From Bacteroidota bacterium (GTDB lineage Bacteria; Bacteroidota; Bacteroidia; NS11-12g; UBA955): a DNA stretch of 37,077 nucleotides. Of the stretch, positions 379-3,010 are shown piece by piece. Under the pieces are notes generated by a model that saw only the letters and a program-made list of their open reading frames with translations, made no database searches and was not told where the DNA came from. Positions within the stretch are counted from its first letter, which is position 1, and every line of letters starts with the position of its first letter. The translations under genes were made by a program, and so were the position numbers. The stretch spans positions 1 to 37,077 of the forward strand of contig JABMMZ010000069.1 of assembly GCA_013205405.1 (NCBI GenBank), read 5' to 3'.

Positions 379-677
379 TTTGAAATTATGGCTATAACTT
401 TATCAACCTCCCTTATCATTTCATTCAACTTGTGCTTCAACTCACGTCTTTTATTTGGCTCTAACCCTTCGCTTGTAATTACACCTTCTACAATCTCTTG
501 TATTTTTAATTTTTTTTCCAATTCATTAATAGAACTATTCTGAATATTTACCAATTGATTTAAGCGTTGAATCTCTTTCGATATTTTTTTATTTTCTTTA
601 CTAAATACCTCATTTTGAGATTTCAAAACCTCTACTTTTTTCTTTATTTTTACTAATCTTTGTACAATAACATCCAT
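375..677 (-). CDS. Small coiled-coil protein downstream of pheT
   Basis: A 100-residue, highly charged protein with no signal peptide or membrane segment. Residues about 10-60 are rich in Lys/Glu/Gln with heptad-like spacing of Leu/Ile/Val, as in a coiled coil. The C-terminus (KLNEMIREVDKVIAIISK) matches the conserved end of a Bacteroidota-only family that sits directly after pheT and is often followed by zapA, so a structural or cell-division-related role is possible but unproven. Its ATG (675-677) overlaps the pheT stop by one base (TAATG), and its own stop overlaps the next start. All three genes are therefore probably translated from one message. Confidence 0.8.
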   Translation of the reverse strand: MDVIVQRLVKIKKKVEVLKSQNEVFSKENKKISKEIQRLNQLVNIQNSSINELEKKLKIQEIVEGVITSEGLEPNKRRELKHKLNEMIREVDKVIAIISK

Positions 678-2056
678 TATTTTCTAATAACCGCATTTAA
701 CTGATTTTCAAATTGTTCCATTAATTTACTCATTATTGAATCTATTTCTTTGTCAGTCATTGTTTTTTCTTGGTCATATAAATTAAAACTAACACTTACT
801 GATTTTTGGTTTTGCTCCAATGGCTTGCCTTCATAAACATCAAAAACATTGATATCAATAAGCTTTGAACTGCCATATTGTTTAGCAATTTTTTCAATCA
901 TATTGAAACTTTTATTTTTATCTAACACCAAACTTAAATCTCTTTTTACCATAGGAAACTTAGGTAAAGGCTGCAATTCGAAAATATTTTTTTTAGTTTG
1001 TTTTATTAATTTTTGCCAATCAATTACCGCAAAATAAACAGCATCCTTAATGTCAAATATTTCAAGTTCTTGGCGCTCAACTTCTTTTATTTCTGTCAAT
1101 TTTTCATCTACATTAAAAACTTTACATAGTCTATTTACCACCGATTTTAAAAAGTAGTAATCTGCTGGCATTTTTTTCAACTCCCAACTTTCTTTTGTTT
1201 GATAACCAGAGGAAAACAATACCAATTGTTCTTGTTCTTTAAATCCTCCATTTTCGGTTGTTTGATATACTTTACCAAATTCAAAAAAAATTGTGTTTTC
1301 AATTCGTCTGTTTTTATTGTACGCTATTTCATTCAAACCACTGTATAGCATAGTTTGACGCATTACATTCATTTCTATACTTAAAGGATTAGAAATATAA
1401 ACCAACCTTTCTTTATCTTCATAATATTTATCGGCATCTAATGAGTTGGTCATAATTTCTGAAAAACCAATTCCATTGAGCAGTTTAGAGGCATTTAATT
1501 CATACTTTCTATCATTCAAAGTATTATTATAATTTAAAGCTGTTTTTAAATTTTTATTTAAAGGTATATTTTCAAATCCATGTATACGAATTAACTCTTC
1601 TATCACATCTATTTCTCGTGTAACATCACCTTTAAAATAAGGCACTTTTAGTGACCATTTGTGGTCTTCAAAACTTTCAATTACGATTCCCAAACCCTTC
1701 AAAATTTGCTCAACCTTTTCTTTTGAAATCTTTATTCCACATACCTTTTCAATAGTCTCTTCTCTTAATATTACCTCAAAAGGTTTTAAAATATTGGGAT
1801 AATTATCATAAATTATTGACCCTACTTGAGCATCTGCATATTTAATTAATAATTCTGTTGCTAAATGAATTGCCAAAATTGTATTTTCAGGATTTACCCC
1901 TCTTTCAAATCTAAAACTAGCATCGCTATTTATGGCATGTTGCTTTGCTCCTTTTCTTACTATATCAGGACTAAATAATGCTGATTCTAAAAAAAGACTT
2001 TTAGTACTTTCTGAAACACCACTTTCCTTACCTCCATATACACCAGCTAAACACAA
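677..2056 (-). CDS. pheT: Phenylalanyl-tRNA synthetase beta subunit, C-terminal part
   Basis: This is the second half of PheT, the beta subunit of the (alpha-beta)2 enzyme that charges tRNA-Phe. Its frame is the same as that of the first half (2111-3010) and is separated from it only by an in-frame TAA at 2111-2113. The reading frame resumes right after that TAA (KEYKLAGLELVIADSNQ, then VLCLAGVYGG), so the true coding content extends to 2110. The coordinates given begin at the first possible start codon, a TTG at 2054-2056. Visible parts are the end of the B3/B4 editing region (FRFERGVNPENT), the B5 and core domains, and a C-terminal ferredoxin-fold anticodon-binding domain (LPKFPMVKRDLSLVLD) ending AVIRK. 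A new start at the TTG would drop about 18 conserved residues. Confidence 0.9.
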   Translation of the reverse strand: MCLAGVYGGKESGVSESTKSLFLESALFSPDIVRKGAKQHAINSDASFRFERGVNPENTILAIHLATELLIKYADAQVGSIIYDNYPNILKPFEVILREETIEKVCGIKISKEKVEQILKGLGIVIESFEDHKWSLKVPYFKGDVTREIDVIEELIRIHGFENIPLNKNLKTALNYNNTLNDRKYELNASKLLNGIGFSEIMTNSLDADKYYEDKERLVYISNPLSIEMNVMRQTMLYSGLNEIAYNKNRRIENTIFFEFGKVYQTTENGGFKEQEQLVLFSSGYQTKESWELKKMPADYYFLKSVVNRLCKVFNVDEKLTEIKEVERQELEIFDIKDAVYFAVIDWQKLIKQTKKNIFELQPLPKFPMVKRDLSLVLDKNKSFNMIEKIAKQYGSSKLIDINVFDVYEGKPLEQNQKSVSVSFNLYDQEKTMTDKEIDSIMSKLMEQFENQLNAVIRK

Positions 2057-2110
2057 AACTTGATTACTATCTGCTATTACTAATTCTAAGCCAGCTAACT
2101 TGTATTCTTT

Positions 2111-3010
2111 TTAATCTAAAGCTTTAAAAACCTCTCCGGCTTTAGCCTTTCTAATAAATATCTCACTGTTAGCAATAGTATTTAAATCGAAAGCATGCAA
2201 TGGCTGACCAATACTATGTAAAACATAATTCGTAATGTCAACCACATTATTTATTGGATTTAAGCCAATAGATTTCAATCTATTTTGAATCCAATCGGGA
2301 CTTGGCTTTACATTAATTGAGTTTAAAACAATTCCACTATATCTTAAACAATCTGAACTATTTTCAACACTAATTTTTAAATTATTAATACTAATTTTTT
2401 CTAATTCACGCGTTTCAATTTTCTTTAATGGTAAATTTAAAACGGTGGCCAATTCGCGCGCTACACCATAATGAGAGGCAGCATCTCCCCTATTAGCCGT
2501 CAATCCAATTTCAAATACGATATCACTTGTTACATTAAAGAAATCTTTGCCTAATGTTCCTATTTTCGTATTTTCAGGCAATACCATTATACCATCATGA
2601 CTTGTTCCTATCCCTATTTCATCCTCCGCACATATCATTCCTTCGCTTGCTTCGCCTCTTATTTTTGCCTTTTGTATTACAAATGATTCGCCAACAAGCG
2701 GAAAAATAGAAGTTCCTACAGCGGCAACAATTACCTTTTGCCCGGCAGCTACATTGGGCGCCCCACATACGATTGAAAGCAACTCTGCTGTACCAATATC
2801 TACTTTTGTTAAACTTAATTTATCGGCATTAGGATGTTTTTGACATTCTGTAACTAAACCAACAACAAATCCTCTCAGACCACCTTTTATTGAGTCGACT
2901 GCCTCGTAATGCTCTACTTCCAAACCTGTAGCTGTTAAAATTTTCTCTATTGCTTCAGCCGATTGAGTTATATCCACATATTCATTTAACCAATTTAATG
3001 AAATTTTCAT
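2111..3010 (-). CDS. pheT: Phenylalanyl-tRNA synthetase beta subunit, N-terminal part (ends at in-frame TAA)
   Basis: 299 residues, starting MKISLNWLNEYVDI, the canonical PheT N-terminus. An EMAP/OB-fold tRNA-binding region lies at about residues 40-150 (HPNADKLSLTKVDIG, VCGAPNV), followed by the start of the B3/B4 domain (LTANRGDAASHYGVARELA; GQPLHAFDL). Translation stops at TAA 2111-2113 after FKALD, where PheT proteins normally continue LDG and on to the CIAGVFGG block. Spacing from LD to that block is 20 residues counting the stop, as in intact PheT. This is therefore a nonsense codon replacing one residue, not a deletion or frameshift. pheT is normally essential and single-copy. The two fragments plus the 18 intervening codons give about 778 codons, close to the usual 800. 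Confidence 0.9.
   Translation of the reverse strand: MKISLNWLNEYVDITQSAEAIEKILTATGLEVEHYEAVDSIKGGLRGFVVGLVTECQKHPNADKLSLTKVDIGTAELLSIVCGAPNVAAGQKVIVAAVGTSIFPLVGESFVIQKAKIRGEASEGMICAEDEIGIGTSHDGIMVLPENTKIGTLGKDFFNVTSDIVFEIGLTANRGDAASHYGVARELATVLNLPLKKIETRELEKISINNLKISVENSSDCLRYSGIVLNSINVKPSPDWIQNRLKSIGLNPINNVVDITNYVLHSIGQPLHAFDLNTIANSEIFIRKAKAGEVFKALD

Follow-up and report, generated by a model that had tools for sequence, protein, structure and literature searches.

How can the gene of an essential tRNA synthetase be interrupted by a stop codon and look intact in every other respect? The question is raised by pheT in a 37,077-nucleotide stretch of Bacteroidota DNA (the window, C61:1-37077 of the draft genome G000), which, when read through its sole internal stop (codon 300 of 777), is translated as MKIS...FKALD-stop-KEYKLAGLELV...CLAGVYGG...VIRK. 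The features of the locus are collected in Table 1.

Table 1. Features of the interrupted pheT locus, in window coordinates.
Feature	Position	Strand	Description and evidence
pheT, phenylalanyl-tRNA synthetase beta subunit	677..3010	minus	777 codons through one internal TAA; TIGR00472, translation
In-frame TAA, codon 300 of pheT	2111..2113	minus	Translation; sense codon in 129/129 homologs
pheT 5' part, 299 aa from ATG	2114..3010	minus	tRNA_bind PF01588 and first half of B3/4, PF03483 positions 2-80
pheT 3' part, 477 codons	680..2110	minus	Second half of B3/4, B5, CLM core, FDX-ACB

A single gene with one nonsense codon

Translation of positions 3010-677 shows that the reading frame is identical before and after the TAA, and the Pfam B3_4 match is broken exactly at this codon, with profile positions 2-80 before it and 82-173 after it. 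Both results agree with the initial annotation, in which the two halves of pheT lie in one frame and are parted by the TAA alone, and the CLAGVYGG block does start 20 residues past the stop, as had been claimed. The domain set of a bacterial PheT is complete and in order (tRNA_bind, B3/4, B5, CLM, FDX-ACB; Pfam), and the TIGR00472 model (pheT_bact) scores 646 bits for the main stretch and 741.6 bits together with its frame neighbour (cut-off, 402.65). The window gene thus resembles bacterial PheT in domain order, length, and conserved residues, with pheS located elsewhere in the genome, but departs from it in that the TAA at codon 300 breaks what should be an uninterrupted reading frame. Because a 477-codon open frame carrying PheT domains is not expected by chance, pheT is one gene carrying one nonsense codon.

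The draft genome is 2.15 Mb in length, is divided into 123 contigs, is 83.8% complete, and is probably a metagenome bin (MAG); the TAA sits 2.1 kb from a contig end. The assembly holds this single pheT, with no second copy elsewhere of the kind that the initial annotation had envisaged. Its one copy of pheS is intact, and no internal stop was found in pheS, ileS, alaS, or valS of this genome. The closest congeners are only ∼60% identical to the window in PheT, and there is therefore no near relative for comparison.

Homologs at the stop position and constraint on PheT

No stop codon occurs at the column of codon 300 in any of 129 homologs, which carry Gly (59), Glu (35), Asp (17), Lys (10), Asn (4), or Gln (4) instead. 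The residue replaced by the stop had been described as of Gly/Asp type, a description that suits Gly and Asp themselves but is too narrow for the Glu, Lys, Asn, and Gln found in the remaining homologs. One substitution is enough to create the TAA, since 31 of the homologs carry a codon that differs from it at a single base (GAA in 22, AAA in 8, and CAA in 1). The ancestral codon is nevertheless uncertain, because the position is occupied in the closest congeners by GAT or GGT, both more than one substitution from TAA. A homopolymer indel had also been dismissed as a cause, on the grounds of the shared frame. The argument is sound for one indel on its own; a compensating pair around the A-run could produce the stop, although such an event is less likely.

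Of the near-invariant PheT sites, none of the 69 that precede the stop has changed, and among the 44 that follow it only one has (T362S); for both halves the distance and identity of PheT to outgroups fall within the range of the congeners. By these comparisons, PheT is under ordinary constraint on either side of the stop. The stop would then be recent, not real, or harmless, because a long-standing null allele would be expected to lose such constraint.

Other interrupted genes and the genetic code

We scanned 663 kb in 36 stretches of the draft genome, the window included (497 ORFs of at least 150 codons), using codon bias to find same-frame junctions flanked by coding sequence; when stops were planted in ORFs of at least 300 codons, the scan recovered ∼66% of them. 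In the 663 kb scanned, pheT was the only clear break of a conserved gene found. Other flagged junctions that were checked against Pfam proved to be gene boundaries (feoA/feoB, DUF3098/BacA, amidohydrolase/SpoU methylase, and an unassigned ORF/glycosyl hydrolase 1), and the rest were dismissed by eye as short frames apparently lying antisense to real genes. A fragment resembling an ECF sigma factor on contig 97 also has an in-frame TAA (L162:12212-12214, minus strand), together with a further stop at the expected beginning of the C-terminal region; with these two defects, the fragment looks like an ordinary decayed pseudogene.

A single such stop in the 663 kb implies ∼29 substitutions, or about 5×10−5 per base, in our judgement a plausible rate for a draft assembly.

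TAA is the main terminator of this genome, ending 211 of the 274 ORFs of at least 300 codons in the same 663 kb (TAG, 47; TGA, 16), and its class-I release factor looks like RF1. Frequent in-frame UAA in conserved genes, as a reassigned codon would bring, was not seen, pheT standing alone in the scanned sequence. With RF1 present and TAA in general use as a stop, we rejected reassignment of UAA, in line with the initial annotation, which had considered it unlikely because TAA ends intact genes throughout the window.

Only one class-I release factor was found in each of G000 and a second genome, G001, the latter ∼99% complete, whereas most congeners have two. Since both genomes retain long ORFs that terminate in TGA, RF2 is probably just missing from the two assemblies.

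Alternatives that take the stop as real

If the TAA is real and fixed, the 299-residue N-terminal part and a separately started C-terminal part might assemble as PheT. The enzyme can be split, as Mycoplasma pneumoniae is viable with PheT cut at the linker between B1 and B3 (residues 207/208; PMC12494982), an engineered arrangement that likewise consists of two reading frames parted by a stop. In an AlphaFold model, moreover, the TAA of the window gene maps to the turn of a beta-hairpin formed by strands 294-297 and 302-304, and a promoter-like match lies upstream (2241-2213, minus strand). Such matches, however, occur at chance level (1 found versus 1.3 expected), and the engineered second part had its own promoter and start codon and was separated at a tolerated linker, whereas the window gene is cut in the middle of the B3/4 domain (Pfam positions 80/82 of 174) and has neither. 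No start codon with an initiation signal at a domain boundary was found for its second part: the first candidate past the stop is a TTG at 2056, 18 codons on and inside a conserved block. With the stop interrupting B3/4 and no ATG until 219 codons after it, a working two-peptide PheT is disfavoured, and we consider it very improbable.

Readthrough of a real UAA, whether by a near-cognate tRNA, a suppressor tRNA, or a programmed signal, would account for the intact and constrained frame downstream, but we hold it to be just as improbable. UAA is the least leaky stop in E. coli, where its readthrough ranges from ∼9×10−4 to below 1×10−5 (PMC4989110); here it is the normal terminator and RF1 is present, and no further broken conserved gene was found in the scanned sample. 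Shuffled sequences fold as well as the RNA surrounding the stop (z = 0.44), so that the stimulatory structure expected downstream of a programmed readthrough site was not found. A suppressor tRNA may sit in the missing part of a genome that is 84% complete and yielded few tRNAs; none with a UUA anticodon was found among those recovered, a set that is clearly incomplete. The ∼16% of the genome that is missing also leaves room for a replacement phenylalanyl-tRNA synthetase, in which case pheT would be a pseudogene. Against this stand the single pheT and intact pheS, a PheT without relaxed constraint, and the count of same-genus genomes with a second full-length pheT, which is zero; we regard replacement as no likelier than the other two.

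A probable isolated change in a draft consensus

The explanation that we favour, with a probability of about 0.9, is that the TAA is an isolated change of one codon in the consensus sequence of this incomplete draft. It would stem either from a consensus or assembly error or from a real nonsense mutation present in some cells of the sampled population, and we consider the error roughly twice as likely as the real mutation. Most cells presumably carry a sense codon at position 300, and living cells of the species would make ordinary full-length PheT. Among the causes listed in the initial annotation (consensus error, population mutation, split protein, and readthrough or reassignment), our tests accordingly leave the first two in favour. 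The TAA most likely reflects an error at one codon or a rare mutation in the assembled sequence rather than a novel mode of decoding, and as it stands it serves as a warning about single stops in draft genomes. Were it real and fixed, it would mark a natural split synthetase or efficient UAA readthrough in an essential tRNA synthetase gene; a literature search for natural pheT nonsense alleles found nothing.

Internal stops in pheT of relatives

A counterpoint to this explanation comes from the order to which the genome belongs, in which an internal stop occurs in 3 of ∼90 pheT genes: that of the window and those of genomes G035 and G090. The three stops are in three different places and all belong to one family. 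Among the matches listed for the order, no internal stops occur in ileS (59 genomes), alaS (98), or valS (∼95), and 147 mostly high-quality genomes of the phylum contain no internal pheT stop. Fisher's test of pheT against ileS, alaS, and valS gives p∼0.02, or 0.07 once the window is dropped as the case that led to the search, and the three comparison genes are not a random sample. The excess is weak and unexplained, a hint at most, and gives only a faint indication of something specific to pheT; it nevertheless makes the window a pointer to a small excess of internal pheT stops in this family. One could suppose that the family tolerates nonsense codons in pheT, by readthrough or by two-peptide assembly, with the window as a fixed case and the other two genomes as further ones, but this wider proposal is also very unlikely.

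The pheT genes of G035 and G090, draft assemblies of related species, resemble that of the window in being intact apart from one internal stop, and differ from it in the position of the stop and in the use of TAG instead of TAA. In G035, which is 100% complete, the TAG (L184:2217-2219) is internal, near residue 595 when numbered as in the window, and the frame is intact on either side of it. In G090, the TAG (L183:1106-1108, also L215:2605-2607) lies near residue 230 in the same numbering, and the next ATG follows 93 codons past it.
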